This document shows, piece by piece, positions 4,687 through 47,863 of a DNA stretch of 64,000 bases (the stretch's first letter is position 1; the number at the start of each line of letters is the position of its first letter). The position numbers and the translations under genes are program-made. A model generated the notes under the pieces. That model did no database searches and was not told where the DNA came from. It saw only the letters and a program-made list of their open reading frames with translations. Source of the stretch: Planctomycetota bacterium (GTDB lineage Bacteria > Planctomycetota > UBA8108 > JACQVS01); NCBI GenBank assembly GCA_016209605.1, contig JACQVS010000197.1, positions 1 to 64,000 of the forward strand, given 5' to 3'.

Positions 4687-6125
4687 AAGCCCTTTTTTTC
4701 AACCCTCCCTTCCTGCCCAAGTTCTCCCGCGGCCAGCGCAGCCCGCAGGTCACCAAGAGCGGGACCTTGTACTATCCCATCTGGCTTTCTTACGCCACTG
4801 GCGCCGTTGACATGGACGGCCACGAGGTGCTGCTGATCGACGCGGTGGCGGATGAACTGGCGGTGGAGGAAGCGGTCCGGCGGGCGCGCGCCTTCGAGCC
4901 GGACCTCGTCATCGTCGACACCAGCACGCCGAGCATATTCAGCGATGCCCGGGCCGCCGAAATCCTCAAGAAGGAGCTGCCGCGCAGCCTCATCGGCCTG
5001 GCCGGCCCGCACGTCTCGGCGACGGCCGCCGAGACCTTGGCTTCCTTCCCCTGGGTGGACTTCCTCGCTCTCGAGGAGTACGACCAGACCCTGCGGGAGC
5101 TGTCCGCGGCCATCGACCGGAAGGCCGACTGGACGGCCACACCGGGCATTGCCTGGAGGAAAGAAGGAAAGCCGTTCATCAATCCCGAGCAGCCGCCGGT
5201 GCAGGACCTCGACCAGTACCCCTTCGTCAGCCGGACCTACGCCCGGTTTCTCAACTACACCAAGTACTTTTACGCCATCACCCAGTGGCCGGTGGTGACC
5301 ATCATCAGCGGCCGCGGCTGTCCCTACAAGTGCAACTACTGCATGTTCCCGCAGACGCTGCACGGCCGCCAGTACCGCACCCGCAGCCCGGAAAACGTCG
5401 TCGCCGAGCTGCAGTACATTGAAAAGACCTTCCCCCGGGCACGGGAGGTCTTCATCGAAGACGACACCTTGACGCTCAACCGCAAGCGCATGGTGCGCAT
5501 CTGCGAGGAGATCATCCGCGGGGGGGTGAAGATCAGGTGGACCTGCAACGCCCGCGCCGACGTCGACTACGACACGCTTAAGATCATGAAGGCCGCCAAC
5601 TGCCGCCTGCTCTGCGTCGGCATCGAGAGCGGCGACCAACAAGTCCTCGACAACGTCGAAAAAGGTATCCGCCTGGAGCAGATCGAGCAGTTCTTCAAGG
5701 ATGCCAGGCGGGCGGGCGTGATGGTGCACGGCTGCTTCATGGCGGGAAACCGGGGGGAGACCCGGGAGACGCTCGAGAAGACCCTGGCCTTCGCGAAAAA
5801 GCTCAATCCGGACACCGCCCAGTTCTTCCCGCTCATGGTCTACCCCGGCACCAGGGCTTACGAGTGGGCCCGATCGGAGAACCTGATCAAGGCCAAAACC
5901 TACGCCGACTGGCTGACCCCGGAGGGGCTGCACAACACCGTCGTCGACCGGCCCGACCTGCCCCACCAGGAGATCGTCGATTTCTGCAACCGGGCGCGGC
6001 GCGAGTTCTACCTGCGGCCGCGGTACCTGGCAAACCAGCTCCAGCAAATCCTCCGGCAGCCCGGCGAGCTGGTCCGCGTCATGAAGAGCATGAAGACTTT
6101 CGCCAGGTACCTGATCCGGAAATGA
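4683..6125 (+). CDS. B12-binding-type radical SAM protein
   Basis: A 480-residue protein with an N-terminal Rossmann-like region of the cobalamin-binding type (about 1-150; ends with IGLAGPHVS) and a radical SAM core whose iron-sulfur motif is GRGCPYKCNYC near residues 212-222 (CX3CX2C). Later strands carry EDDTLTLNR and the ESGDQQVL signature of the Elp3/MiaB-like fold. The canonical base-off DxHxxG cobalamin motif is not evident, so cobalamin binding is unproven. Start overlaps pilR by 4 bases (ATGA-type). Being first in an envelope-glycan module, it may modify a lipid or sugar precursor. The substrate cannot be read from the sequence. Confidence 0.85.
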   Translation: MKALFFNPPFLPKFSRGQRSPQVTKSGTLYYPIWLSYATGAVDMDGHEVLLIDAVADELAVEEAVRRARAFEPDLVIVDTSTPSIFSDARAAEILKKELPRSLIGLAGPHVSATAAETLASFPWVDFLALEEYDQTLRELSAAIDRKADWTATPGIAWRKEGKPFINPEQPPVQDLDQYPFVSRTYARFLNYTKYFYAITQWPVVTIISGRGCPYKCNYCMFPQTLHGRQYRTRSPENVVAELQYIEKTFPRAREVFIEDDTLTLNRKRMVRICEEIIRGGVKIRWTCNARADVDYDTLKIMKAANCRLLCVGIESGDQQVLDNVEKGIRLEQIEQFFKDARRAGVMVHGCFMAGNRGETRETLEKTLAFAKKLNPDTAQFFPLMVYPGTRAYEWARSENLIKAKTYADWLTPEGLHNTVVDRPDLPHQEIVDFCNRARREFYLRPRYLANQLQQILRQPGELVRVMKSMKTFARYLIRK

Positions 6126-9274: not shown

Positions 9275-10701
9275 AGGAGCGGCGCTTTCCCTGGAGGCTG
9301 GCCCTGGCCGCGCTCGTGGCCGCAGTCGATGCCTTGATCATCTTCGATGCCTTCTCGCTCGCGTACCTCCTGCGCTTCCGGCTGCATTTCCTGGCGGCGA
9401 CCTACCTGGCGCCAGCCCCGGTGGGGGAGTACTTGAAGGCCATGGTGGTGGTGGCATACTTCTGGATCCTGCTTTTTTACATCTTCGGGCTTTACGACTT
9501 CACCCGCCATCGCTCCGGCATCGACACCATCCACCTGATCCTCAAGGCCATCAGCTTCGGCACCGCGATCATCTTGAGCTTGACGTACTTCTACCGGGAG
9601 TTCAGCTTCTCGCGCCTGGTGTGCGCGTATGCCTGGGGGATCTCGGTGATCCTCTTCTCGGCGTTCCGCATCGCCCTCAACTGCTTTGTCGCCGACTGGC
9701 ATCGCAGCGGCCGCGGCTTGCGCAACCTCGCCCTCATCGGCTCGAAGACCCTGGCGCAGTTTCTCATCGAGAAGGTCCAGCGCCAGCCCGAGCTCGGATA
9801 CCGCATCGCCGGCATCGTTGACACGACGCCGCCGCAGGGCCCCCCCATGCCCGGCTGTCCCTACCTGGGAAATCTCGACGAGCTGGAGGACATCCTGCGG
9901 CGCCACCGGCTGAACGGCGTCCTGATCGCCCATCCGACCATCGGCCAGTTCGACCTCCTGCGGACTATCCAGGTCTGTGAGCGGAGGATGGTGGCCATCC
10001 GCATGGTGCCTCCCACCTACGACCTGCTGGTTAACTACCGCGATCTCGAAGAAGTCGATGGCCTCCCGCTGGTCAAGATCAACGAGCAGGAGTACAGGCG
10101 CTTCGCCGACCTGGCGAAGCGGATCTTCGACGCGGCGGCCGCGAGCGTCCTCTTGCTCTTCTCCCTGCCTCTCTGGGGCCTCATCGCCCTTTTTATCAAG
10201 GCGGAGGACGGCGGGCCGGTGTTCTTCCAGCAGGCGCGCATCGGCAAGGACGGCCGGCCCTTCCGGATGTGGAAGTTCCGCACCATGGTCGCGAACGCCG
10301 AAGCGCTGCTCCCCCAGCTGGTCGACCTGGCGGGGCTGGCGGAGCCGGTTTTCAAGCTGGAAAACGACCCGCGCCTCACCCGGGCGGGGCGGCTCCTGAG
10401 GCGATCCAGCCTCGATGAGCTGCCGCAGCTCCTGAACGTTATCCTCGGCGAGATGAGCCTGGTGGGCCCGCGTCCGGAGGAGGAGAGGCTGGTCCGGATG
10501 TACAACGTCTGGGAGCAGCGGCGCCTGAAGGCCATGCCGGGGATCACCGGCCTCCAGCAGGTGACCTGCCGCGGCTCCACCTCCCTCAGCGAGCGGGTCA
10601 AGTGGGACATCCTCTACCTGCGCAAACAGTCCCTTGCCCTCGACCTGTGGATCCTCCTGAAGACCGTCTGGGTGGTGCTGACCGGCAAGGGGGCGCGATG
10701 A
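9271..10701 (+). CDS. Polyprenyl-phosphate sugar-1-phosphate transferase (priming enzyme)
   Basis: A 476-residue WcaJ/WbaP-type initiating transferase that places the first sugar phosphate on undecaprenyl phosphate. Four to five N-terminal membrane helices (about 10-130) are followed by a CoA-binding-like Rossmann region (about 145-265) and the bacterial sugar transferase domain (about 280-476). That domain has the hallmark KRIFDAAAA helix, WKFRTM, the ENDPRLTRAGRLLRRSSLDE acidic motif, the GEMSLVGPRPE loop and MPGITGLQQV. Length and order match the exopolysaccharide polyprenyl glycosylphosphotransferase family. It indicates that the surrounding genes build a lipid-linked polysaccharide or glycoprotein glycan. 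It overlaps both neighbours by 4 bases. Confidence 0.92.
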   Translation: MKERRFPWRLALAALVAAVDALIIFDAFSLAYLLRFRLHFLAATYLAPAPVGEYLKAMVVVAYFWILLFYIFGLYDFTRHRSGIDTIHLILKAISFGTAIILSLTYFYREFSFSRLVCAYAWGISVILFSAFRIALNCFVADWHRSGRGLRNLALIGSKTLAQFLIEKVQRQPELGYRIAGIVDTTPPQGPPMPGCPYLGNLDELEDILRRHRLNGVLIAHPTIGQFDLLRTIQVCERRMVAIRMVPPTYDLLVNYRDLEEVDGLPLVKINEQEYRRFADLAKRIFDAAAASVLLLFSLPLWGLIALFIKAEDGGPVFFQQARIGKDGRPFRMWKFRTMVANAEALLPQLVDLAGLAEPVFKLENDPRLTRAGRLLRRSSLDELPQLLNVILGEMSLVGPRPEEERLVRMYNVWEQRRLKAMPGITGLQQVTCRGSTSLSERVKWDILYLRKQSLALDLWILLKTVWVVLTGKGAR

Positions 10702-12749
10702 AGCTCTTCCCAGTCGATCGAGGTCAGGCCCGGTGGCCCCTCGCCCTGGCGGCGCTGCTCCTCCTCTCGCTCCTCGCTCGCCTGGCATCCCTCGAGAGCG
10801 ATGCCCCCCTCGATGCCGCCCGGGATCTCTCTCTCACCACGGACGGCAGCTGGTACACCGGCGCGGCCCTGGACTGGGCCACCGGCCGGGAGGGCGTCGG
10901 GTCGGGTCGCGGCCGGTTTCGCGGATCCGGCTGCTCGGATTACGATCCGCCGGCCTACGGTTGGCTCGCGCGCGGCACCTTCCTCATCTTCGGGCCGGCC
11001 CGCTGGACCGCCAACCTCACCGGCGTCCTCTCGGCGCTCCTCGCCATCGGGCTCACCGCCGCGGCGGCGCGGCGGGCTCACGGCCCCGAGGCCGGTCTGG
11101 CCGCCGGGGCGCTCCTCAGCTTGAGCTATCCCTTTTTCATTTACAGCCGAGCGCCGGGGATTTACCTCCCGGCGGCAGCCGTCGCGGCGGCGGCGCTCTA
11201 TCTCGAGGCCCGCGCCGAGGCCGGTTCGAAAGGGCGGGATTTGGTCTTCAAGTTCAGCGCCGTGCTCCTGGCGCTTGCCGGCGCCTGGGCGGTGAAGCCC
11301 ATCTTGTTGCTGAACGGCCTGGCGTTTTTACTCTGCGAAGGCGCGCGCTGGTGGCGGCGGGGCCATCCCCGGCGCCGGCTCTTCCTGGGCGCCGGGCTCT
11401 GCATCGCCGGCCTCGGCGCGGCGTTCCTCTGGCAGAGCCGCTTCTTCGCTCCCCAAGCCCACAAGATCGAGGAGTACCTCGAGGCCGGCGGGGGGCTGGC
11501 GCGGCTGCCATACCGGTTGTTGACCCTGGAGATTCGCCTCAGCTTTTCCGCGTTGGCCCCGGCGCTGGCCGGGCTTTTCGTTCTCGGAGCGCTGTTTCAT
11601 CCCAGGCGCCGCCTCGACGAGGCGGCGCTGGCTACGGCGGCGGTTTACCTGGCAGTGCTCGCCCTTCTGGGCTATTCCCCCATTCGCTACCTGCTGCCGG
11701 CATTTCCGGCCATGGCGCTGGTCGCCGGCCGCGCCGTGCAGGCTCTCTTCCTCGAGCGACCCCCGGCGGCCCGGCAGCCGCTCTCGCCCTGGAAGCGCTG
11801 GGGGAGAGGAACGCTCCTCGCTTACGCGGCGCTGCAAGCGCTGCTGGCCGCCGGCGGGGCGATCGATGCGGCCGCGCTCTTGCCGCCAGGGCTCGATCTC
11901 CGGCTCGCGGTTTACGGCGCGGCGGCAGCGGCGTTCGGCGCCGCGGCCGAGATCGCCCTCGGGAAAACGGTGTCCATCCGGACGGCGCGCTGGCAACCGT
12001 TGGCGGGCGGCCTTCTCCTGGCGGTCCTCCTCCTCCCCGAACTCCTTCGGGGCGGCCGGGCCCTGGCACAGCCGGAGAACTCCATCATCCTGGCCGGCGA
12101 GGAGGTGAAGAAGATCTTGAGCCCTTCGGCGCATCTCACCGGCCCCTTCGCCCACGTCCTGACCGATGAGGCCCCCCAGCGTCGCACCTACCTGCCGCTC
12201 CTTCACTTCGGCAAGGGCCGTCTCGAGCGCGAGCTGCGCCGGACCGGCGCCAGCCACCTCGCCGTCGACGCGGGCGAGGACTTCCGCGCCCTGATCGAGA
12301 TTTTCAAGAAGAACGGCGTGCCGCTGCGGCTCGTCCACGAGTTTTTCCTACGACGCCAGAAGGTCCATCTCTACCGCCTCCCCTGGGCCGATGAGATCGC
12401 CCCGGCGAGCGAGTTCGAGCGCGGCGTCGAGGCCCTGCAGGCGGGAAACTTGCGGGCCGCGGAGAGGCATCTCGGCGAGGCCGTACGCCTCTACCCCGAC
12501 TCTTCCGCAGCCTCGAGCGCCCTGGGAGCTGTTCTCCTCCAGGCCGGCAGAAGCGCCGAGGCCGCCCCGCTCCTCGAGCGGGCGCTACTTCTCAACCCGT
12601 ACGAAGCTTCGGCGCTGCGCACCCTGATCCGCATCCTCCTCGAACGCGGCGACCTGCCCAGGGCCCGGTCCCTCCTTGAAAAGCTCACAGCCCTGGACGG
12701 CGCCGACGCGGAGGCGGCGCGGCTGTTAGAAAAAATCAGCCGCCGATAG
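10698..12749 (+). CDS. GT-C type membrane protein with C-terminal TPR region
   Basis: A 683-residue membrane protein of the family 39 glycosyltransferase type. The ATG at 10698 overlaps the stop of the priming transferase and is preferred over upstream in-frame starts inside that gene. Residues 10-480 contain about ten hydrophobic helices, with ARDLSLTTDGSWYTGAALDW in the first periplasmic loop. The last 120 residues read as tetratricopeptide repeats (for example GNLRAAERHLGEAVRLYPDSS), a place for protein interaction. It ends the coupled run that starts at pilC. The TPR tail may tie it to other glycan proteins (inference). Confidence 0.78.
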   Translation: MKLFPVDRGQARWPLALAALLLLSLLARLASLESDAPLDAARDLSLTTDGSWYTGAALDWATGREGVGSGRGRFRGSGCSDYDPPAYGWLARGTFLIFGPARWTANLTGVLSALLAIGLTAAAARRAHGPEAGLAAGALLSLSYPFFIYSRAPGIYLPAAAVAAAALYLEARAEAGSKGRDLVFKFSAVLLALAGAWAVKPILLLNGLAFLLCEGARWWRRGHPRRRLFLGAGLCIAGLGAAFLWQSRFFAPQAHKIEEYLEAGGGLARLPYRLLTLEIRLSFSALAPALAGLFVLGALFHPRRRLDEAALATAAVYLAVLALLGYSPIRYLLPAFPAMALVAGRAVQALFLERPPAARQPLSPWKRWGRGTLLAYAALQALLAAGGAIDAAALLPPGLDLRLAVYGAAAAAFGAAAEIALGKTVSIRTARWQPLAGGLLLAVLLLPELLRGGRALAQPENSIILAGEEVKKILSPSAHLTGPFAHVLTDEAPQRRTYLPLLHFGKGRLERELRRTGASHLAVDAGEDFRALIEIFKKNGVPLRLVHEFFLRRQKVHLYRLPWADEIAPASEFERGVEALQAGNLRAAERHLGEAVRLYPDSSAASSALGAVLLQAGRSAEAAPLLERALLLNPYEASALRTLIRILLERGDLPRARSLLEKLTALDGADAEAARLLEKISRR

Positions 12750-37840: not shown

Positions 37841-39019
37841 TCAGCGGTTTCGCCCGTCCACCGGGCAGCAGGCGAGCTCCACGGCGCCGCCGCCCCCAAT
37901 GATCGTGAATTCCTCCCAGAGGTTGACGGTGGAGCAGATATGCCGGGGGGCGATGAGGAGATGGTCGCCGATCTCGAGCCGGCGCGATCCCGAGCGGCCG
38001 GGCAGCTCGTGAAGGACGGTGTGCTCCTCGTTGGTGGAAAGGACCTCGAGGCCCGGCTCGCTGAAGCGCTCCACCGGCCCGGCGTCGATGCCCCAACGCT
38101 TGTAGCCGAGGTTGAGGGTGAGGCGGTCCCCGCCGGGGCGGTCCATCACCTGCGCGAGGATCAAGGCGGCGAGGCGAAAGAGGCCCGGCATGCGGCCGTC
38201 GTAGTTGGTGTCCCAGTAAATCCAGGTGCCGGGGGAGATCTCCACCTCGAGGCTCGAGTCGCCGCGAGCCAGGACGATTTTCAGGTCTGCCAGGAATCCC
38301 GGCGTCCCGCCGCAGACCAGGAGAGGGACTTCGTGGCCGCGGGAGCGCAAGGCGTCAATGGCTTGAAAGACGAGCGCCATGGCCTCCTCGGCCACCCGCC
38401 GGCGCTCCTCCGGCGTGGAGCCCTTGTTGTGGCCGTCGTAGGCGTGGAGGCCGGCGAGGCGGAGGCGCTGAGAGCCGGTCACGGCGCGGATCTCCTCGAG
38501 CAGGGAGAGCGCCGCCGCGGGAGCCGTGCCGGTGCGGTGCATGCCGACATCGAGATCGATCAGGTAATCGATGGCCACCCCGAAATGAGCGGCGGCCTGG
38601 GCAAGATAGGCGGCGTGGGCGGGCGAGGCGACTTGCGCGAGGAAGCGCACGTGCGGGTGCTCGGCGATCCGCTCCGCTAGAATGTGAGCCTGGTGGCGGA
38701 GCAGCGGGTAGGCGATGAAGATATCGCGAGCCCCGGCCCGAAGTAGCATCCCCACCTCGTTGGGAGTGGCCTTGAACCGGGTGAGGCCGTGCTCCATCTG
38801 CAGGCGCGCAGTCCACGATGACTTGTGGGTCTTCACGTGGGTGCGCAAGTGCCGGAAGCCGCTCCCCGGGGCGATCTCCTCGAGGTAGCGCCGCATGAGG
38901 GCAAGGTTATCCTCCACACGAGCGCGGAAGACCAGGAGCTGCGGCGTCGGGAGGTCCGCCAGCGAGTCGCTCCAGTAAGCTTTGATCGTGGCAGAGTCAT
39001 AAGCTGGGCAAGGATCCAT
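37841..39019 (-). CDS. PLP-dependent D-threonine aldolase / D-serine dehydratase-type enzyme
   Basis: A 392-residue fold-type III PLP enzyme. The ATG at 39019 is chosen because the longer frame runs into the tRNA remnant. It has LPTPQLLVFRARVEDN near 23, the PLP lysine Lys63 in THVKTHK, DLDVGMHRTG near 155, SPGTWIYWDTNY near 262 and the metal-site stretch PRHICSTVNLW with His360 and Cys362. D-threonine aldolases usually show His-x-Asp there, whereas eukaryotic-type D-serine dehydratases show His-x-Cys, so D-serine or a similar substrate is possible. It acts in D-amino acid breakdown. No partner genes adjoin it. Confidence 0.85.
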   Translation of the reverse strand: MDPCPAYDSATIKAYWSDSLADLPTPQLLVFRARVEDNLALMRRYLEEIAPGSGFRHLRTHVKTHKSSWTARLQMEHGLTRFKATPNEVGMLLRAGARDIFIAYPLLRHQAHILAERIAEHPHVRFLAQVASPAHAAYLAQAAAHFGVAIDYLIDLDVGMHRTGTAPAAALSLLEEIRAVTGSQRLRLAGLHAYDGHNKGSTPEERRRVAEEAMALVFQAIDALRSRGHEVPLLVCGGTPGFLADLKIVLARGDSSLEVEISPGTWIYWDTNYDGRMPGLFRLAALILAQVMDRPGGDRLTLNLGYKRWGIDAGPVERFSEPGLEVLSTNEEHTVLHELPGRSGSRRLEIGDHLLIAPRHICSTVNLWEEFTIIGGGGAVELACCPVDGRNR

Positions 39020-39142
39020 GCCGACCAAAATATGGCGTGCCCGGACGGAGGGCAAGGAGAAAGCGGTCTGTCCGCGCCCGTTTTCACGGCATTGATATTC
39101 AGCCCGATTCCAGTTATGATCTTCCCAGCTTTTCCTGCCAGC

Positions 39143-39261
39143 GTCCCCGTAGCTCAGTTGGCTCTTCCTCCCCTCAGGGGAGGTTGGGAGGGGTGAATAA
39201 CAGAGCGGCGCGCCCCCCTCAGGGGGGCAACAGGGGGTGAATAACCGCAAAACCGCCGCTC
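39143..39261 (+). pseudogene. Scrambled tRNA-like remnant carrying two hairpin repeats
   Basis: Bases 39143-39161 repeat the 5' arm and D-stem of the tRNA-Arg found 240 bases downstream (GTCCCCGTAGCTCAG then TTGG). The tRNA then breaks into a hairpin-bearing segment (CCTCCCCTCAGGGGAGG) that ends GGGTGAATAA (39191-39200). The next piece, AGAGCGGCG, matches the tRNA again and is followed by a second hairpin segment (CCCCCCTCAGGGGGG) with the same ending (39235-39244). GAGCGGCG 39203-39210 recurs inverted as CGCCGCTC 39254-39261. No complete cloverleaf forms, so this is a pseudo-tRNA. Confidence 0.65.
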
Positions 39262-39381
39262 GAAGTATTTCACCCAGCTTTTGCAGCGGGGCGAGACAGT
39301 ACCGCCTCAGGAAAAGTATTTAACTCCAGACATTGATATCATCGGCCAACTCGATTAATATTCCCTTCACCTCTCGTTTGC

Positions 39382-39458
39382 GTCCCCGTAGCTCAGATGG
39401 ATAGAGCGGCGGTTTCCTAAACCGCAGGTCCCGCGTTCGAATCGCGGCGGGGATACCA
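39382..39458 (+). tRNA. tRNA-Arg (anticodon CCT)
   Basis: A full cloverleaf of 77 bases with encoded CCA. The acceptor stem is GTCCCCG with CGGGGAT, with a G-U pair at its end. The D arm starts TAGCTCAGATGG. The anticodon arm is GCGGT-TTCCTAA-ACCGC, with CCT in the loop, and the T arm holds GTTCGAATC. It reads AGG codons. A tyrosine recombinase and toxin-antitoxin genes follow within 3 kb, so this tRNA may be the insertion site of a small element. Confidence 0.95.
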
Positions 39459-39578
39459 TTTTACCCCAAGGAGTTATGGCAATATTGATCTTGGCACTTT
39501 TGGCCAGCGTCACTTTTCGCATCCACGATTGTCGATTTTTATACCCCGGGAAGTTGTGGGGTCGGCAAGGAGGGGGAT

Positions 39579-39617
39579 GGGGGGACCTGCGCCGGGGCCG
39601 CAGGAGCTGGTCCCCCC
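39579..39617. terminator. Two-tier hairpin after tRNA-Arg
   Basis: A 9-bp outer stem (GGGGGGACC 39579-39587 with GGTCCCCCC 39609-39617) encloses a 5-bp inner stem (CTGCG 39587-39591 with CGCAG 39599-39603). There is no T-run on either side, so an intrinsic terminator is only one possibility; it could also be an end structure of the mobile segment. It lies just past the stop of the zinc-finger gene on the minus strand. Confidence 0.45.
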
Positions 39618-39635
39618 GTACTCACTCCATGGCGG

Positions 39636-40112
39636 TCAACGACCGCCCAAACCAACAGGCGCTCGTGTACAGACCGGATGTACTCCGACATGTGCTACCG
39701 GTCTGTATACGGCTCCGCTAACTAGTTCACGATCAGATGCTTCCTCGGCCTGTCGCGCCTTCGTGTATTCTCTCCACTCCTTTTTTGTCATTTTGCTATC
39801 TTCGCGTGGCGTTACTCCAAACCACTCCTGGAGCATGAGCGCAGCCTCACGAAATTCAACGCCCTCGATTGCGGCCACAAGGTCAATCACGTTGCCTGAT
39901 TTCCCACATTGGCCCGAAAAGCACTTCCATGCCCCCTTCTTGAGATCCACCGAAAACTGGCGAGGGTTTGTCCCCTTGTGGACCGGACACTTACCAGTCA
40001 GCCGGTCACCCTGACGCTTGAAACTTTCGATCAAGCCGTAGCGGCCGAGAACCTGGTCGATCGTTACACTCGCCTTCACTGCCTTGTAATCCACCCAGAG
40101 CTCTCCTGCCAT
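39636..40112 (-). CDS. CHC2 zinc-finger protein, primase N-terminal domain only
   Basis: A 158-residue protein with the zinc-ribbon of DnaG-type primases but nothing else of primase. Ligands are C42-x2-H45 in GKCPVHKG and C64-x4-C69 in WKCFSGQCGKSGNVIDLV; the CX4C spacing and following NVIDLVAAIEG are typical of CHC2 fingers on mobile elements. The ATG at 40112 follows AGGAGG by six bases. There is no TOPRIM or helicase part. The tail contains an inverted repeat. It is divergent from the toxin-antitoxin operon. It may bind DNA for the element or be a leftover of a replication gene. Confidence 0.82.
   Translation of the reverse strand: MAGELWVDYKAVKASVTIDQVLGRYGLIESFKRQGDRLTGKCPVHKGTNPRQFSVDLKKGAWKCFSGQCGKSGNVIDLVAAIEGVEFREAALMLQEWFGVTPREDSKMTKKEWREYTKARQAEEASDRELVSGAVYRPVAHVGVHPVCTRAPVGLGGR
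39668..39707. repeat. 10-bp inverted repeat, 20-base spacer
   Basis: TACAGACCGG (39668-39677) and its exact complement CCGGTCTGTA (39698-39707) lie inside the 3' end of the zinc-finger gene, 51 bases after the two-tier hairpin. It may be a recombinase or regulator site, or a hairpin in the mRNA. Confidence 0.5.
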
Positions 40113-40177
40113 AAACACCTCCTGTAAAGTCATAGGTTTTATAAAGAACTGAAGTTACGGTAGCACTGAAGGAAACC

Positions 40178-40231
40178 TACCGTCAAGCTTCTGGAGGTCC
40201 CGGTAATTTTCTATCTCTTCTATTGACGGTA
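40178..40231. promoter_or_regulatory. Inverted repeat, candidate operator before higBA
   Basis: TACCGTCAA (40178-40186) and TTGACGGTA (40223-40231) are perfect 9-bp inverted arms in the 176-base divergent spacer. The right arm also forms the TTGACG of a possible upstream promoter (TACACT at 40247-40252, 18-base spacing). Autoregulation by the XRE antitoxin is usual for such operons, so this is a reasonable operator candidate. Confidence 0.4.
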
Positions 40232-40255
40232 TCTTACGCTCTTGGTACACTGCCC

Positions 40256-40284
40256 TTGACAGTCTATACCCTATAAGATATAAT
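40256..40284 (+). promoter_or_regulatory. Consensus sigma-70 promoter of the toxin-antitoxin operon
   Basis: TTGACA at 40256-40261 and TATAAT at 40279-40284 are separated by exactly 17 bases, both perfect matches. The expected transcription start, about 40291, falls on the annotated ATG of the toxin (40289), so toxin mRNA from this promoter would have no leader. Confidence 0.75.
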
Positions 40285-40288
40285 CCCT

Positions 40289-40660
40289 ATGGTGGTTGAA
40301 GCGATTTTCTATCAGGAGGAAGACGGGACATGTCCGGTTCTGGAGTTCCTGAAGAATGAACCGCAGCGAGTGCGCCAGCAGGCGCGTGAGCGAATCATTC
40401 TCCTCAAAGAGCGTGGCCATACCGCTCGCCGACCGTTGGTGGAGTACCTCGGAGAGGGACTCTACGAACTGCGCTGGCATACCCAACGCGTCCAGTACCG
40501 GATTCTCTACTTCTTCCACGGCCAGAAGGCTGTTGTCCTCTCGCACGCGCTTACCAAAGAGGACAAGATCCCTCTTGCCGACCGCAATCGTGCGTTGCGT
40601 CGAAAATCGTTCTTTGAGGCCAACCCGGCGAAGCACACCTACCAAGGAGAAACTCTATGA
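40289..40660 (+). CDS. HigB-like toxin (phage Gp49/RelE superfamily)
   Basis: A 123-residue RelE-superfamily toxin of the Gp49/HigB class, expected to cleave mRNA, often on the ribosome. Family features are the start VEAIFYQEEDGTCPVLEFL, the helical LKERGHTARRPLVEYLGEGLYELRW and the core strand QYRILYFFHGQKAVVLSHALTKEDKIP. Its length fits. It overlaps its antitoxin by 4 bases, toxin first, the order of HigBA systems. There is no Shine-Dalgarno sequence before the ATG and the best promoter sits directly on it, so translation may be leaderless or start at the GTG next to it. Confidence 0.88.
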   Translation: MVVEAIFYQEEDGTCPVLEFLKNEPQRVRQQARERIILLKERGHTARRPLVEYLGEGLYELRWHTQRVQYRILYFFHGQKAVVLSHALTKEDKIPLADRNRALRRKSFFEANPAKHTYQGETL

Positions 40661-40983
40661 GAACAAAGAAACGTAAAACCACAGACGCCATAGCCATCAT
40701 GGATGCTCTCTGGGGCAAAGAACCTGGCTGGAAAGAAGGTGTTGCGAGAGAACGACAAAAAATCGCTCTCGGTGAAGTTATTCGTCAGGCACGAGAAGCT
40801 CGTGGCTGGACGCAAAAGCAATTGGCCCGCAAGGCCGGCACGTCGCAGAGCTACATCTCGCGAATTGAGGACGCCGATTACGATCGGCTCATGATCGCAA
40901 CTCTCGAAAAGATTGCGGTGACCCTTGAGCTTCCCCTCACAATTACGCTTGGTTCCCAGACGGTCCAGCTCCAGCCGGCCTGA
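40657..40983 (+). CDS. HigA-like XRE antitoxin
   Basis: A 108-residue antitoxin with a Cro/CI helix-turn-helix at about residues 37-95 (GEVIRQAREARGWTQKQLARKAGTSQSYISRIE is the classic form). The basic N-terminal 35 residues probably contact the toxin. AAGGAG lies inside the end of the toxin gene, six bases before the ATG, so translation is coupled. It should neutralise the upstream toxin and repress the operon, possibly through the inverted repeat at 40178-40231. Confidence 0.9.
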   Translation: MRTKKRKTTDAIAIMDALWGKEPGWKEGVARERQKIALGEVIRQAREARGWTQKQLARKAGTSQSYISRIEDADYDRLMIATLEKIAVTLELPLTITLGSQTVQLQPA

Positions 40984-41108
40984 TGGAGTACAAGTAGGGC
41001 AAAGTGTCTCCGGAGGTCGAACCTGCGCACGTTTCCTTTCTTTTATTTAAGCCACTTTCTACGAAAAGAGCGGCTCTGTTTCACAGCGTTCAAACCGGCA
41101 AGAGAATT

Positions 41109-42281
41109 TTACCGCCTTGCCAGCATCGTATCCGCCGCCGGCTTGTGGCTGAGCAAGTGGGGCAGAGAATCGATGACCTTGCGCAGTTCCTCGAATGGCG
41201 GGTGAAAGTAGCGTTCACTCACGCTGCCAGGAGAATGGCCAAGGAGTGCGCGATAGACGACAAAGGTCGCTCTCTGTCCAATCCACGTGGCAAAGCTATG
41301 GCGAAGATCGTGCCAGCGAATGTCGGGCGACAATCCGGCGCGCTTCAAGGCTGACTTGAAGCTCTTTTTTATTTCGGTAAACGATCGTCCAAGGACGTGC
41401 TCATCAGGGTCTATCTTCGTGCGCCCCTTGAGGAGTTGACGCAGGATCTGGCAGAGCTCCGGGTGAATCGACACCTCAAAATCGTTGTGCGCCTTCATTT
41501 CACTTCCCGGAATCGTGATCTTTCGCTTTTCAAGATCAATATTCCACCACTTGAGCCCAACAACGTTTCCGCGGCGAAGACCCGTGTGAAGGGCAATCAG
41601 TACGGCCACAAGGAGGTGGGACGGTGGTTGGAACTCTTGGGTTGCACCGGCCCGATTCGAGTATTTGACGTCCCGAATGATCGGCGTCTGACAGGCCGTC
41701 AAAAGCGCGCGTGCTTCATCAGGCGTGAGCGCAACGCCCTGCTCTTTGGAGATTCCCTTGATCTTAACCCCGTCTGTTTGGTCTAACGCGCCGTACCCGT
41801 GTCGTATGGCCCAGCGAAAGAAGGCGCGAAGCTCGGTCAGGTACTTTTGCTTCGTTCGTGCGGTGATCTCTCCCTTTCTCTTGTGCCAGGTCTTGAGGAA
41901 CCTCTCGACGTCCTTGAGTTCAATCTCATCGAGGAGCTTTTCGCCAAATGCCGGCGTAAACACGGACGCAAACGTCTGACGGTAGTCCCGCATGGTGGAG
42001 GGCCGGACGTGCTTGAGGCTTAAGCTACCTGCATAATAGATCTCGATCTCCAGTGTTCCCTTCTCGTGGCGCCAACAGGCCACCAAGCTATAAGCCAAGT
42101 GGCAGTGGTACTTGTCCATGCCGAGCGAGCTGAAATTCGGCCAATCCTTCAGGATCGGCCCCTTGTCCCTCAGGTCTTGGATTAGGAAGTAAAACTTATC
42201 CCGGACGCGCTGCGGCAGCTTCCCGAGCCGCCGCAGGACCGGCTTCTTGATCCTTACCTCGAAAGGGACCTCGGCCACCAA
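41109..42281 (-). CDS. Tyrosine recombinase with N-terminal RelE-like toxin domain
   Basis: A 390-residue continuous frame. Residues 3-86 look like a RelE/ParE-type toxin: FEVRIKKPVLRRLGKLPQRV, GPILKDWPNFSSLGMDKYHCHL, CWRHEKG and LEIEIYYAGS, stopping just before the usual toxin C-terminus. From about 88 it is a phage-type integrase: a core-binding domain (RPSTMRDYRQTF to ALDQTDGVKI) and a catalytic domain with Arg236 (HTGLRRGNV), Lys263, His324-x-x-Arg327 (HDLRH), His349 (LLGHSPG) and Tyr358 (SERYFHP). All catalytic residues are present. The toxin domain takes the place of an arm-binding domain. The start is TTG 42281 or GTG 42278. It probably mobilises the tRNA-Arg-linked segment. Confidence 0.85.
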   Translation of the reverse strand: MVAEVPFEVRIKKPVLRRLGKLPQRVRDKFYFLIQDLRDKGPILKDWPNFSSLGMDKYHCHLAYSLVACWRHEKGTLEIEIYYAGSLSLKHVRPSTMRDYRQTFASVFTPAFGEKLLDEIELKDVERFLKTWHKRKGEITARTKQKYLTELRAFFRWAIRHGYGALDQTDGVKIKGISKEQGVALTPDEARALLTACQTPIIRDVKYSNRAGATQEFQPPSHLLVAVLIALHTGLRRGNVVGLKWWNIDLEKRKITIPGSEMKAHNDFEVSIHPELCQILRQLLKGRTKIDPDEHVLGRSFTEIKKSFKSALKRAGLSPDIRWHDLRHSFATWIGQRATFVVYRALLGHSPGSVSERYFHPPFEELRKVIDSLPHLLSHKPAADTMLARR

Positions 42282-42677
42282 AGCAATGTACCCTATTAAC
42301 GAGTACTAGTCAACCTTCTTTCCCGCATCGCTTGGCACTTAGGTCTCAGACCTATCGTTCAGGTTGAAAATCCAGCGCTCGCGGCGAGAATCTGGTCTAT
42401 GCCTTGTCCGCAATCCAGGGTAAAATCGCCAGTTGATGGTCCGATGTCACGGTGCCGGGGAGCGGGTAAATATACACATTTTTCCCTCCGTTAAAGAGAA
42501 GGGTTGGGCCAATCGCCCCTACCTGTCAGAGGGCAATCTATATATGATGGTGCAATCCGCCTTCGGGGGAGCGGTTGGTTTGGAATAAAAAAAATCTGGG
42601 GAGAGGACCCGGGGCTTTTTTCCTTCCAGGCGGGTAGGGGGAATCATACCCCCCCGGGGGGGGGGACCGGGGGGAAG
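42282..42677. other. Gene-free stretch beyond the integrase
   Basis: No convincing gene was found in these 396 bases. TCGCGGCGAGAAT at 42379-42391 matches 11 of 13 bases of the tRNA-Arg 3' arm and is a weak candidate for an attachment-site remnant. Near 42650-42675 the sequence becomes runs of C and G, including ten consecutive G, which may be a hairpin or an assembly problem. Confidence 0.4.
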
Positions 42678-42956
42678 TTAGGGGTCGAGGATCCCGGTCG
42701 CCGCGAGGATTTCATCCTCAGAACACCCTCGCCGGCAGAGGAGCCGGAGCTGGAACTGGCTCTTGCCTCTTTGCCCGATCCAGAGCGGCCGGCCGCCGCG
42801 GGTTGCGGGGTGAAGCGGGCATGGGCAGGCGGCAACCCAGCCGTGCTCGGTGGTTTTGACATTCTTCAATCGCTCCAGGAGGCGATCAATCGGGATGATT
42901 ATGCAATCCGGCGGGAGGCCGGCGTCTTTCCTCTTCCACCATGGCGGGAACAACAT
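42678..42956 (-). CDS. Second zinc-finger fragment of mobile-element primase type
   Basis: A 92-residue frame with C46-x2-H49 (ACPCPLHP) and C74-x3-C78 (LLCRRGCSEDEILAATGI). The order matches the N-terminal zinc finger of plasmid and phage primase-helicase proteins, where the finger ends with a GCS-xx-ILAALG-type helix. Nothing of the catalytic domains follows; the frame ends four residues later. It overlaps the lipoprotein gene by 71 bases, and no good ribosome binding site was seen. It is probably a truncated remnant, or a small zinc-finger protein like the one at 39636. Confidence 0.55.
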   Translation of the reverse strand: MLFPPWWKRKDAGLPPDCIIIPIDRLLERLKNVKTTEHGWVAACPCPLHPATRGGRPLWIGQRGKSQFQLRLLCRRGCSEDEILAATGILDP

Positions 42957-43335
42957 GCTGAGAAGCGGATCGGGCGGCAGTCTCGCGTAGAGAATCAGGA
43001 AGCTGATCGTCCGGATCCGTTCTAGGTTCGCTGGGCCCTGCAGCGAAGAGGGAAGCGATAGTCAGGGGCAAGACGACCGTATCCGCCAGCAGGCTGAACG
43101 GCAGGTCGACGACTCCGAAGCTACGCACCAGCCAGGCAGGGATCGGAGCGTCCCCTGCACGGCCCGAGTGGATCAGCCTGATGTCCTCGCGTATTCCCCC
43201 GTAGACCTGAGGTGGCCGGGGCCACTGACGAAGCCGGTCAACCGTAGAACACCCGCTGGAGCCGAGTTCCAAGAGTGCAAGGCAAGTCGACAACCATGTC
43301 AGCCGCAACCATTCCGGGCCGGTCATAAGAATCAT
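42886..43335 (-). CDS. YceK/YidQ-family lipoprotein
   Basis: A 149-residue predicted lipoprotein. The hydrophobic start ends in a lipobox-like GSSGC near residue 29. The family pattern follows: PQVYGGIREDIRLI, then SFGVVDLPFSLLADTVVLPLTI, matching the DUF1375/YceK type in which D-LPFS-x-x-D-T-x-LP is conserved. The last 50 residues are variable and overlap the zinc-finger frame. GAGGT lies seven bases before the ATG. The family's role in the envelope is not known. Confidence 0.8.
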   Translation of the reverse strand: MILMTGPEWLRLTWLSTCLALLELGSSGCSTVDRLRQWPRPPQVYGGIREDIRLIHSGRAGDAPIPAWLVRSFGVVDLPFSLLADTVVLPLTIASLFAAGPSEPRTDPDDQLPDSLRETAARSASQHVVPAMVEEERRRPPAGLHNHPD

Positions 43336-43415
43336 GCAATTACCTCACGTGGAAAGGCGCCAATTAGTGAACAATCAGCGTGTCCGACGCTCTCGGGAAA
43401 CTCGCTCTCCCTTGA

Positions 43416-43694
43416 TCAACGCGAGGACAGGAACCAACTGAGTCCGAAGAAGAGAACGGCGAACCACAAGCCTGCAAATATCGGAAGCAGCAGCCAGAGC
43501 ATCCTCCGCCTGGCGGTAACGGCTATTACCGCAGTGGTAAGGATCGCCAGGATCACCGAACCAATCAGGGCAAACAAGGCGGCCTGGTCGATCCACGGAT
43601 AAAACTCGGAGCCATACGCCGGGCATACCCCAACAACGGTGAGGCCCAGCATCGCGCTAACCTGCACAGGAAGGTTTGCTCTTCGCTGCACCAT
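43416..43694 (-). CDS. Small membrane protein, function unknown
   Basis: A 92-residue protein with a possible N-terminal signal or helix (SAMLGLTVVGVCPAYGS) and two clear membrane helices (AALFALIGSVILAILTTAVIAV; MLWLLLPIFAGLWFAVLFF) separated by a short Arg-rich turn. It is not recognised. The start is uncertain; an internal Met at residue 15 is possible. It lies between the lipoprotein and an XRE gene on the same strand. Confidence 0.5.
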   Translation of the reverse strand: MVQRRANLPVQVSAMLGLTVVGVCPAYGSEFYPWIDQAALFALIGSVILAILTTAVIAVTARRRMLWLLLPIFAGLWFAVLFFGLSWFLSSR

Positions 43695-43784
43695 GATCAG
43701 GCTTGGACTCGCTCCATCATACTGTTCTCTCCGCAGGAGGTATTCCGAGTGAGTCCTCGTTTGAAGAGTTCCCGTCGAACGGGA

Positions 43785-44105
43785 TCATCTCGAAGCACTC
43801 ACCAGTTTGAGGCCAAGGACTTGAGCCAGCCTGTCACCGGTCGCCATGCGGATGTCCCGCTCTCCGGAAAGGAACCGTGAGATGATGATTTGGGACACCA
43901 TCGCTCTCTTGGCGATCTCATAGACTGTCAAGTCGCTCGCCTGTATGGCCCTCTTCAGCGCATCGCTCGCCGAGTCTGGAATCGGCTGCCTTGGCGCCGG
44001 CGGGAATTCCTCACTGACCCTGCGGCGAACCTCTCGGTCCCTCGCCACCTGTTCGGCTGACAGCTTGCCGGAACGCGTCATTCTCGTCAGTTTCTCCGAA
44101 CTCAT
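43785..44105 (-). CDS. XRE-family helix-turn-helix protein
   Basis: A 106-residue DNA-binding protein. A basic N-terminal half is followed by a Cro/CI-type helix-turn-helix (about 55-102): ASDLTVYEIAKRAMVSQIIISRFLSGERDIRM, then ATGDRLAQVLGLKLV. It starts 1 base after the stop of the radical SAM-STAS gene and is probably co-transcribed. No toxin-like gene adjoins it, so it is more likely a regulator than an antitoxin, though the small genes downstream are unassigned. Confidence 0.78.
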   Translation of the reverse strand: MSSEKLTRMTRSGKLSAEQVARDREVRRRVSEEFPPAPRQPIPDSASDALKRAIQASDLTVYEIAKRAMVSQIIISRFLSGERDIRMATGDRLAQVLGLKLVSASR

Positions 44106-44106
44106 G

Positions 44107-46104
44107 CTAGCGGTAGAGCCCGAAGAACGTCGCCAGCGCCGCGATCTCCCCGACCTTGGGCAGGACCACCCGGATGCGGTCGCGGTAGGCGCGCAGCCCC
44201 TCCGAGATCCTTTCGGCCGCGCCTTCTTTGAGCTCTGCCAGGCGAGCCAGGTCCAGCACCACCTGATCCTTCTTCCGCTCCAGCGCCCGGCGCAGATCCG
44301 CCACGAGCTTCCCCGCTCCCGTCCCGGCCAGCGTGCCTTCCACCCGAATCCAAACGGTCGCCGGGGGCCGCCGCTCCACGTCGACCCGGTGCCCGGCCGG
44401 ATGCTCTCCGCGCAGCCGGCGCCAGGCCCGGGCCAGCCCCGAATCCTCCTGCAGCCGGAAGGTGTGCCGGATCAGCCGGGGGTGCTGGAAGAGGTGGAGC
44501 TTCAGGATCAGGGCGGTCCACAGGGCCATGACGAGAGCGGCCACCGACTTGCATCGCTCCAGGAGCGTGGGCGGTCCCAAGGTCGCGTGGACCCGGGCCT
44601 CGAGATCGGCGATCCACCGGCGCACCTCGGCGTTTGGACCGAGGAGCTTGCCCGCCAGGAATACCGGATAGGCTTTCCGGATCTCGGTCGTAAACCGCGC
44701 CGCCTTCCTGCGCAGGTGCGAGAGCGGCGACTCGCGGAGCTTCAGGTGGCCCAAGAGCCAGCTATCGACGGAGCGGTAGATCGACGGGCCAAGCCGCTGG
44801 AAGTCCTCCTCGAAGCAGCGCCGCTGCGCGGCCTCGATCTCGGCCGGCGACATGGTGGGGTGCTTGACCAGGGAGGAGAACCCGTCGCCCCGCCGGTAGA
44901 AGGAGTCCGGATCCGTGACGGCGGTCGGATCGAGGAGGCCCTCCCGCACCACCCGCTCGTGGAACGGCGTCCCCGGGACCGGGCCGTAGATGAGAAACTG
45001 GGTCAGCCCCGGTCGGAGCGCGAGGAGCCCCGAGAGCTCCTCCTCGATGATCTCCGGAGTCTGATACGGGAAGCCGACGATCATCGAGGCGAGGACGTTG
45101 ATCCCGTGCTCCCGGAACTCGGTCAGGACCTCCGCCGCCGGCCGGCCCGACTGCTTCGGGAAGCCCGATCGCGTCCCCTCGTAACCGATCCAGAGGCCAT
45201 CGATGCCCATCTCCAGGATCTCGGTGACCGCGTACTGGCTGATGGCGCGGATGCTGGCGAAGGCGAAGATCGACAGCGCCTTTCCGCCCCGCACCACGCA
45301 GTCCCGGAACTCCAGCGCGCGCCGGCGGTTCAGCAGGAAGTCCTCGTCGATGATGATGATGGCCATCCTCGGGTCGATCTCGAGATAGCGTTCGATGACC
45401 TGATAAATGTCGGCCCCAGTCGGGAGAAGCTGGATGTGCTTGCGCTTGAAGAAGTGCGAGGTGCAGCAGAAATCACACCCGCTGGGGCATCCCAGCCCGG
45501 CAAAGACAACGCCGGTCCGCGACACCGGCAGGCCGAAGACCCGCAAGGGATTGACGACCATGGGGTGGCGGTAGGGCATCTTGATCTCGGGCTCGCCCAG
45601 GAGCCGCCGGAGGAAGGCCACCCCCTCTTCCCGGCAGATGTGGTCGCCGAAAGGGCGCAGGGCCTCGTCGGAGAGCACCGTCCCGTACCCGCCGAGGACA
45701 ATCTGCGATCGCGGCGAGTGCTTTCGGATGAGGGCCACGACTTCCTTCATGCGATGGAGCGTGGCCAGGAGGAACGACACGCCGATCACGTCGTAGCCGC
45801 GCTCGAGCTCGCGGACCAGTTCCTCCTTCGAGGGGTACTGGAGCACCGTGGTCGGCGCCTCCAGGTTCTCGGCGATGTACTCGAGGGAGAAGTGCACGTG
45901 GTGCGAGCGAGGGCTGAAGAGCCCCTGCGCGCGCGTCACCTGGCCAAAGAGCAACTCGTAGCCCACGCTCGGGGCATCCCCTTGCCGCGGCCCCAGCGGA
46001 CGGCAAACACTGGTGAGGAGGACCTTTTTCAAGAGGGCATAAAATATCAGAGTCAGCGTCCAAGTCAAGAGGAATGCGCCTCTCGCCGTTAAAATTTCCC
46101 GCAT
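44107..46104 (-). CDS. B12-binding-type radical SAM protein with STAS-like C-terminus
   Basis: A 665-residue protein. GGGGAG precedes the ATG at 46104. Residues about 40-170 look like a cobalamin-binding Rossmann domain (YDVIGVSFLLATLHRM, IVLGGYGTVLSDE), though no clear DxHxxG is present. The radical SAM core has Cys206-x3-Cys210-x2-Cys213 (GLGCPSGCDFC) and later IIIIDEDFLLNRRR and WIGYEGTRSG. The last 85 residues resemble a STAS domain (TVWIRVEGTLAGTG, QVVLDLARL, RIRVVLPKVGE). That combination suggests control by, or binding to, a partner protein. The substrate is unknown. The XRE gene follows immediately. Confidence 0.8.
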   Translation of the reverse strand: MREILTARGAFLLTWTLTLIFYALLKKVLLTSVCRPLGPRQGDAPSVGYELLFGQVTRAQGLFSPRSHHVHFSLEYIAENLEAPTTVLQYPSKEELVRELERGYDVIGVSFLLATLHRMKEVVALIRKHSPRSQIVLGGYGTVLSDEALRPFGDHICREEGVAFLRRLLGEPEIKMPYRHPMVVNPLRVFGLPVSRTGVVFAGLGCPSGCDFCCTSHFFKRKHIQLLPTGADIYQVIERYLEIDPRMAIIIIDEDFLLNRRRALEFRDCVVRGGKALSIFAFASIRAISQYAVTEILEMGIDGLWIGYEGTRSGFPKQSGRPAAEVLTEFREHGINVLASMIVGFPYQTPEIIEEELSGLLALRPGLTQFLIYGPVPGTPFHERVVREGLLDPTAVTDPDSFYRRGDGFSSLVKHPTMSPAEIEAAQRRCFEEDFQRLGPSIYRSVDSWLLGHLKLRESPLSHLRRKAARFTTEIRKAYPVFLAGKLLGPNAEVRRWIADLEARVHATLGPPTLLERCKSVAALVMALWTALILKLHLFQHPRLIRHTFRLQEDSGLARAWRRLRGEHPAGHRVDVERRPPATVWIRVEGTLAGTGAGKLVADLRRALERKKDQVVLDLARLAELKEGAAERISEGLRAYRDRIRVVLPKVGEIAALATFFGLYR

Positions 46105-46189
46105 CGCTCCCCGATGGTTCGAAGCCCGGGACACGGACAAGGGCGGCGCGCTGATGGACGAGAAACTTCGCGCCGGCATCATCAAGGAC

Positions 46190-46240
46190 CTCTCGCCGAT
46201 CGGACCGAGGAGCTGGCCTGCCGGGAATACAGGGGACCGC
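46190..46240 (-). pseudogene. Fragment duplicating part of the radical SAM-STAS gene
   Basis: Upstream of the radical SAM gene, the bases at 46206-46238 match 44638-44670 inside it at about 27 of 33 positions. Both read, on the minus strand, as a variant of PVF-x-AG-x-LLGP. Only this short piece is recognisable. It lies in the 196-base gap before the Gfo/Idh gene and may be the end of a lost tandem paralogue. Confidence 0.45.
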
Positions 46241-46300
46241 GATCGAGATCGCAACCAGTCGTTCTTTCACCGATCTCCGGCCAATATCCGTCCCAATCAC

Positions 46301-47863
46301 CTACAGCTTCCACCCCCCGCGGTACTCCGGATGGAGGAACTGCTGGGCCGCGGGGAGGTTGGCGGCCTTGAAGGTCTCCCGATCCCAGACCACCTTCTCC
46401 CCCGCTCGCAACGCGACGTTGCCGAGGAGGAGGGCTTCGGTGACGAGCCCCGAGAACTCGAAGCTCGCCCCGGGCTTCACCTTCTCGCCTTTCGAGGCTT
46501 CTAACCACTCCCGCTCGTGACCGATCGAGCGCGGCAGCGTCTTGGGGGGCTCCCGGTACGCCTTCATCTTCGCCTCCGGGATCAGCCGGGGATTGCTCCC
46601 GTGGAATTCGCAGAGGATCGTCCCGCCGTCGCCGCTGAAGAGCAGCCCTTCCTCCGGCAGGCTCTGGCCCGCGTCGAGCTCCTCGGGCCGCGGCGGCTTC
46701 AGCTCGCCGTCGTACCAGATCAGCTTCACCGGCGGCATCTCCCCGCGGGCCGGAAAGTTGAAATGGATGATCGACGCCCGCGGAAAGGTCTCGGCGTAAC
46801 GCTCCGTGGAGCTGGCCTCCACGCTCGCCGGCGCCTCCAGCTTGAGCGCGCGGAAAATGGTGTCGAAGCTGTAGCAGCCCATGTCGCCGAGCGCGCCGGT
46901 GCCAAAGTCGTGCCAGCCGCGCCAGACGAAGGGCAGGTAGGCGCGGTTGAAGGGGCGCTCGAGGGCGGGGCCTAACCAGAGGTCCCAGTCCAGCCCCTCG
47001 GGCGCCGACTGGGCCTCCTGGGGCCGGTCGCGGCCCTGAGGCCAGAAGGGCCGGCTCGACCAGTTGACCACCTGCCGCACCGGCCCGATGGCGCCGCTCC
47101 CGATCCACTCGCAGAGCCGGCGCGTGTCCTCGGAAGCTTGATTTCCGACCGCGACCTGCGTGGCCACGCCGGTCTCCCGCGCCACCTCCGCCATGCGGCG
47201 CGCCTCGTAGACGCTGTGAGCCATCGGCTTCTGGCAAAAGACGTGCTTCCCCTTCTTCATCGCCACCGCGGAAACCAGCGCGTGCCAGTGGTCGGTGGTG
47301 CCGACCACGACCGCATCGACGTCCTTCTCCTTCTCCAGCAGCTCGCGAAAGTCGCCATAGGCCGTGCAGCCGCGGTACTGGCCGGAGCGCTTCTGGCCCG
47401 CGTAATAGGCCTCGACGATCCGCCGGCACGGCTCGCGCCCCGCCGTCCCGGAGGTGACCTTCATGGACCGGGTCAACTGGATCGGCCGGTCCGGGCTGAG
47501 CCAGTCCCAGTCCGAGCCGGCGCCGAGCAGTCGGCGCACCGAATCGCGGAACTCGTTCTCTCCCCATTGCGGATAGTCGGAGCTCTCCTGGTTGGGGTCG
47601 CAGACCGAGACGGCCTGCACCTCGGGGTTCTTCAGGAAGCCCAGCATGACGCGCAGCCCCTGCGAACCGGCGCCGATGAAGGCGAGGTTGATCCTGCCGC
47701 TGGGAGGCACATGGCCGGGTCCGCCGAGGACGCGCCGCGGCACGATGGTGAAGGCCCCGAGCGCCCCGCCCGCCGCCGCCAGGAACCGCCGCCGGGAGAT
47801 CTCCGGACGGCCCGGCGCGATTGTCTTATTGGCTCTTTTGGTCGATCTCTTCCCCCGGCTCAT
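46301..47863 (-). CDS. Tat-exported Gfo/Idh/MocA-family oxidoreductase
   Basis: A 520-residue NAD(P)-dependent oxidoreductase with an export signal containing SRRRFLAAAGGALGAF (Tat type, about 24-40). The Rossmann domain has INLAFIGAGSQGLRVML near 58, DAVVVGTTDHWHALVSA and the catalytic-lysine motif GKHVFCQKPMAHSVYEA. The C-terminal domain shows WRGWHDFGTGALGDMGCY. This large secreted type is abundant in planctomycete-like bacteria and acts on sugars or related polyols. Its ATG overlaps the stop of the DUF1080 gene by 4 bases, so both are made together. Confidence 0.9.
   Translation of the reverse strand: MSRGKRSTKRANKTIAPGRPEISRRRFLAAAGGALGAFTIVPRRVLGGPGHVPPSGRINLAFIGAGSQGLRVMLGFLKNPEVQAVSVCDPNQESSDYPQWGENEFRDSVRRLLGAGSDWDWLSPDRPIQLTRSMKVTSGTAGREPCRRIVEAYYAGQKRSGQYRGCTAYGDFRELLEKEKDVDAVVVGTTDHWHALVSAVAMKKGKHVFCQKPMAHSVYEARRMAEVARETGVATQVAVGNQASEDTRRLCEWIGSGAIGPVRQVVNWSSRPFWPQGRDRPQEAQSAPEGLDWDLWLGPALERPFNRAYLPFVWRGWHDFGTGALGDMGCYSFDTIFRALKLEAPASVEASSTERYAETFPRASIIHFNFPARGEMPPVKLIWYDGELKPPRPEELDAGQSLPEEGLLFSGDGGTILCEFHGSNPRLIPEAKMKAYREPPKTLPRSIGHEREWLEASKGEKVKPGASFEFSGLVTEALLLGNVALRAGEKVVWDRETFKAANLPAAQQFLHPEYRGGWKL

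Follow-up and report, generated by a model that had tools for sequence, protein, structure and literature searches.

Apparent in-frame fusion of a RelE/YafQ-like toxin core, without its predicted catalytic end, to a tyrosine recombinase in a Planctomycetota genome

The described systems closest to the gene analyzed here are the RelE/YafQ type II toxins, whose homologues are encoded by small genes that precede an HTH antitoxin gene, and tyrosine recombinases such as lambda Int, Tn1549 Int, and Xer. The gene lies in a 64,000-nt stretch of DNA from a Planctomycetota bacterium, analyzed as a whole and referred to below as the window. Residues 1–86 of its product are like RelE/YafQ toxins in fold, but differ from them in being fused to another protein, in the deletion of the terminal R and Y, in having no antitoxin downstream, and in matching no Pfam or NCBIfam model above cut-off. 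The remainder shares with lambda Int, Tn1549 Int, and Xer recombinases the core-binding and catalytic domains and the R-K-HxxR-H-Y set, whereas the lambda-type N-terminal arm-binding region is absent and a RelE-fold domain stands in place of the usual N-terminal region. A RelE-family domain joined to a second domain is known from Cami1 (CARF–RelE), among type III CRISPR effectors (PMC11229360); however, Cami1 pairs a CARF sensor with a RelE domain that is active as a ribosome-dependent nuclease, and has no recombinase. A literature search found no report of a RelE–integrase fusion.

The fusion gene runs on the minus strand from 42281 to 41109 and encodes 390 amino acids in a single uninterrupted frame, with a TTG start codon at 42281, followed by a GTG at 42278, and a stop codon at 41111–41109. 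A RelE/YafQ-fold domain (residues 1–86), a core-binding domain, and the catalytic domain of a tyrosine recombinase succeed each other in the protein (Table 1), in agreement with the in-frame toxin–integrase fusion proposed in the initial annotation; the fusion appears genuine and its anatomy clear. Toxin homology stops at residue 86 and integrase homology starts from about residue 90, the fusion reading YYAGS-LSLKHV where its relatives read YYxGSRExAPY. The toxin end had first been placed at YYAG, which recognized the toxin core; however, GS (residues 85–86) is also toxin-derived and the next six residues (RExAPY) are absent. Near the joint, Met98 is the sole internal start, and initiation there would, according to the structure model, cut into the core-binding domain's first helix.

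Table 1. Positions of the fusion gene's parts, its promoter signals, and neighboring features in the window.
Feature	Position	Strand	Basis
Residues 1–86, RelE/YafQ-fold toxin core without terminal RExAPY	42024..42281	-	Homology, AlphaFold2 model, Foldseek
Junction residues 87–90 (LSLK), between toxin-derived and integrase-derived parts	42012..42023	-	Homology limits on both sides
Core-binding (SAM-like) domain, about residues 91–168	41778..42011	-	PF02899 E=1.3e-6, structure model
Catalytic domain, residues 185–362 (R236 K263 H324xxR327 H349 Y358)	41196..41729	-	PF00589 E=1.1e-20, alignment, Foldseek
Sigma-70-like promoter TTGACT-17-TACATT, from toxin operon	42285..42313	-	Also conserved in C98 copy
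Palindrome GTACTC-N7-GGGTAC over -10 region, putative antitoxin operator	42288..42306	-	Same in C98
Neighboring unrelated Gp49/HigB-like toxin gene	40289..40660	+	PF05973 E=9.9e-16
HTH antitoxin gene of Gp49/HigB-like pair	40657..40983	+	PF01381 E=2.1e-14
Truncated DnaG-type primase zinc-ribbon ORF, same island	39636..40133	-	PF01807 E=2.2e-14, phage primase PHROGs
tRNA-Arg(CCT), possible integration target, edge of lower-GC island	39382..39458	+	tRNA gene

The recombinase part is matched above the Pfam cut-offs by PF00589 (74.5 bits, complete, residues 185–362) and PF02899 (29 bits, residues 89–162). Alignment with eleven relatives shows no variation at R236, K263, or R327 (the last within H324-D-L-R) and almost none at H349 and Y358; thus, the R-K-HxxR-H-Y set is complete and the integrase catalytic residues initially described as intact are indeed so. 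Foldseek matches include XerA, lambda Int, and Tn1549 Int, the matched fragments of the latter two (75–356 and 82–397, respectively) being cores solved without the N-terminal domain. Since the core-binding domain was misaligned when toxins and integrases were aligned together, the full-length structure model was built from an integrase-only alignment, and the toxin half of this model is of low confidence. The closest integrase relatives in the phylum are 34–41% identical; about 95–115 unrelated residues stand ahead of the shared core in the ones whose 5′ end is complete (L007, L008, and the fragment L032), which supports replacement of the integrase's N-terminal region in the fusion, as had been claimed.

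Residues 1–86 are up to 62% identical to free-standing toxins and match phrog_32175, a family of unknown function (E=3e-24). Relatives of the domain match curated families only weakly (TIGR02385, E=0.0014; PF05016, E=0.12), and a PDB sequence search with the domain or its profile returned nothing significant, the best match of the profile being 1wmi (RelE, E=0.017); therefore, a fold search was needed. The AlphaFold2 model of residues 1–86 (pLDDT 82) has RelE topology, and Foldseek aligned it with YafQ, RelE, YoeB, and HigB structures with a probability of 1.00 and a TM of about 0.6–0.7, the best solved matches being DinJ–YafQ, archaeal RelE, RelBE2, and YoeB, so that the RelE-like fold first suspected from the residues alone is upheld by structure prediction. 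The 20-plus free-standing homologues, about 88–105 amino acids long when intact, come from the same order and phylum (G003, 60% identical; G059, G087, and G176), from other phyla, and from viral contigs. The sequence YYxGSRExAPY (HEGADY/HEKAPY for one side branch) forms the end of the intact homologues or lies no more than about four residues from it, and none of these proteins runs on into another domain, as the window copy alone does. In the loci read in detail, the toxin is followed by an HTH antitoxin gene, and fold, size, and gene order together indicate that the free-standing homologues are probably toxins.

The fusion departs from this family exactly after GS, and the arginine and terminal tyrosine are lost with the last six toxin residues, although nearly all conserved core residues other than this tail are kept. 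Profile comparison with E. coli RelE by hhalign, at E=0.0028 and a low probability of 11%, sets R81 opposite the GSRE arginine that is deleted in the fusion, and the terminal Tyr of the family would correspond to RelE Y87. RelE cleavage is reduced by R81A and Y87A, and most by R81A/Y87F (PMC2807027). Because the counterparts of R81 and Y87 are gone, the toxin part would not be expected to act as a ribonuclease, and active toxicity of the fusion seems unlikely. Moreover, nothing adjoining the fusion gene (window 38000–47000) matches three antitoxins of the family. The initial annotation had considered that an active toxin might link excision to growth arrest; the absence of the predicted R81/Y87 equivalents, revealed on inspection for RelE catalytic residues, and of a cognate antitoxin after the gene speaks against such a link.

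Upstream of the start codon, the fusion retains signals of a toxin–antitoxin operon. Many free-standing relatives have a palindrome at a comparable position, and the upstream regions of 25 members of the toxin family, the window copy among them, scored higher than shuffled sequences both for the best promoter (mean of 8.88 of 12 versus 7.31 ± 0.16) and for the best palindrome (mean of 5.32 of 6 versus 4.56 ± 0.13). Thus, judging from the shared promoter and palindrome, the integrase appears to be driven by a toxin–antitoxin promoter. In the clear promoters of the family, the -10 box usually ends 2–8 nt ahead of the start codon, and the fusion mRNA is perhaps leaderless.

The same genome contains further copies of the toxin. 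One lies at the end of contig C98 and is 94% identical to the window gene region over 241 nt, from a point 46 nt ahead of the window gene's start codon; a single base is deleted in this copy, which is cut off within the toxin gene at CTGATCATTACCC. Contig C249 starts with a matching end (GGGTAATGATCAG) and a repeated target, GGCTTATAGCT, followed by the remainder of a toxin that ends YYAGGREGAPY-stop and by an intact antitoxin. The natural reading, in which the contigs are linked through their matching ends, is that C98 and C249 are one toxin–antitoxin operon split by an insertion sequence. This insertion sequence, with ends CTGATCATTACCC, is present in the second toxin copy (L026, L027) and shows an apparent target duplication, GGCTTATAGCT. 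Positions 6049–10986 of C249 (L087) also hold an 869-codon frame that by eye looks like a replication protein, together with a complete integrase on the same strand (9874–10986). A third relative, on contig C59, has lost the N-terminal half of the toxin and kept the antitoxin.

We consider it probable, if well short of certain, that the gene is a deletion-type chimera, in which an integrase gene captured the promoter, start codon, and inactive core of a toxin gene. The event would be an in-frame fusion, for which a deletion is the simplest cause, of a RelE/YafQ-like toxin gene with a tyrosine-recombinase gene located downstream in the same orientation. From the toxin side would have come the promoter, the operator, the start codon, and 86 codons, whereas the integrase side would have contributed its core-binding and catalytic domains but not the roughly 100 residues of its own N-terminal region; a single deletion reaching from codon 86 of the toxin to where an integrase core starts would yield the window gene. 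Toxin, antitoxin, and integrase remnant follow each other in this order on one strand of C59, in decayed form, and in G003 and L063 the toxin is directly preceded by an integrase on the same strand. A deletion is simpler than an element jumping in, because the 5′ end of a toxin heads the integrase gene and because C59 has the toxin–antitoxin–integrase order. Thus, of the frozen toxin-gene remnant that had been suggested, the remnant is close to the best reading, but the jump of an element into the toxin gene is improbable. A progenitor locus carrying this particular integrase was not found, and no integrase N-terminus is left near the window gene.

A draft genome of 275 contigs with sister toxin copies could also have yielded such a gene by misassembly, a third toxin copy being joined to an unrelated integrase. 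However, the frame is preserved across the joint, the integrase occurs only once in the genome, the toxin stretch differs by about 6% from the known copy, and the longest exact shared runs near the joint (24 and 14 nt) are short for a typical assembler misjoin, all of which makes an artifact very improbable.

Under the deletion origin, the toxin part would serve mainly as a donor of start and promoter and as an inert N-terminal cap, and the protein, if working at all, would probably be a minimal recombinase, able to bind core sites but free of arm-site control. The fusion's toxin–antitoxin promoter could still be under repression by an antitoxin from another locus of the genome. The toxin part and the second copy differ by six amino-acid and ten silent changes, which show, at the level of sequence, constraint during the greater part of the history they share, before and after the fusion not being separable by them; they could mean that the toxin domain has been under selection since the fusion, against an inert cap. 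Such selection would be expected of a regulator–recombinase whose RelE-fold domain, as a binder of antitoxin, RNA, or DNA, makes recombination depend on the antitoxin level, and the nearly kept toxin core, the low number of replacements relative to silent changes, the retained promoter and palindrome, and the persistence of intact antitoxin genes on C249 and C59 are in its favor. Nevertheless, the fusion does not recur, the divergence from the second copy could predate it, and that copy is itself a broken gene; this selected function is, on balance, improbable. We give equally little credence to a working chimeric recombinase in which a dead RelE domain and the toxin promoter put excision under antitoxin control, where an antitoxin from another locus would repress the gene and may bind the RelE domain, and its degradation would raise recombination.

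The check for recurrence suggested at the outset was negative. Searches of 392 genomes from the phylum gave toxins that stand alone, or ordinary integrases, and no second fusion, and neither the whole protein nor the toxin domain as a query found one in genome_contigs, viral contigs, or phage or plasmid collections, the genome_contigs and first viral scans relying on short exact peptide words, so that divergent fusions could be missed. Since the fusion is seen in this genome alone, a one-off accident is more likely than a new system. Its solitary occurrence would also suit a gene that is, as a whole, a non-functional remnant, deprived of its arm-binding domain and of integration and excision, with a frame that has not yet decayed. 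The truncated primase ORF of the island, the decay of the genome's other toxin copies, and a tRNA 3′ end without the direct repeat that would mark an intact element (no second copy in the 64-kb window) point the same way; 1170 nt without stop or frameshift and the retention of all catalytic residues do not, and we regard such a remnant as unlikely, while granting it some weight. On the preferred deletion origin, a mobile-element recombinase can gain a new N-terminal domain and toxin–antitoxin regulation in a single step. If the product is functional, recombination would be tied to the antitoxin level; if it is not, the gene offers a well-resolved snapshot of toxin-gene decay through gene fusion.

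The fusion gene lies in a region of about 52–58% GC beside the tRNA-Arg(CCT) gene, with DNA of 60–70% GC beyond on the other side. No empty site could be compared: the D-serine-dehydratase-like gene on one flank has relatives, but the radical-SAM gene on the opposite flank turned up, among 13 genomes searched, in this one alone. An orphan tRNA-Arg-like 5′ fragment (window 39141–39161) lies 239 nt upstream of the intact tRNA-Arg and is identical to it at 20/21 nt. A small minus-strand ORF (window 42678–42956) with CPCPLHP...CRRGC spacing looks by eye like a primase-type zinc ribbon; neither Pfam nor PHROG matches support this. The separate toxin–antitoxin pair noted beside the fusion is confirmed by Pfam matches as a Gp49/HigB-like toxin with an HTH antitoxin (Table 1). 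This pair has a perfect TTGACA-17-TATAAT (window 40256–40289) with an ATG 4 nt past the -10 box. A -10 box that nearly touches the start codon is found both here and in the RelE-like toxin family (L033–L042, L063–L078), which suggests that the toxin mRNAs of both may be leaderless, with a palindromic operator over the promoter.
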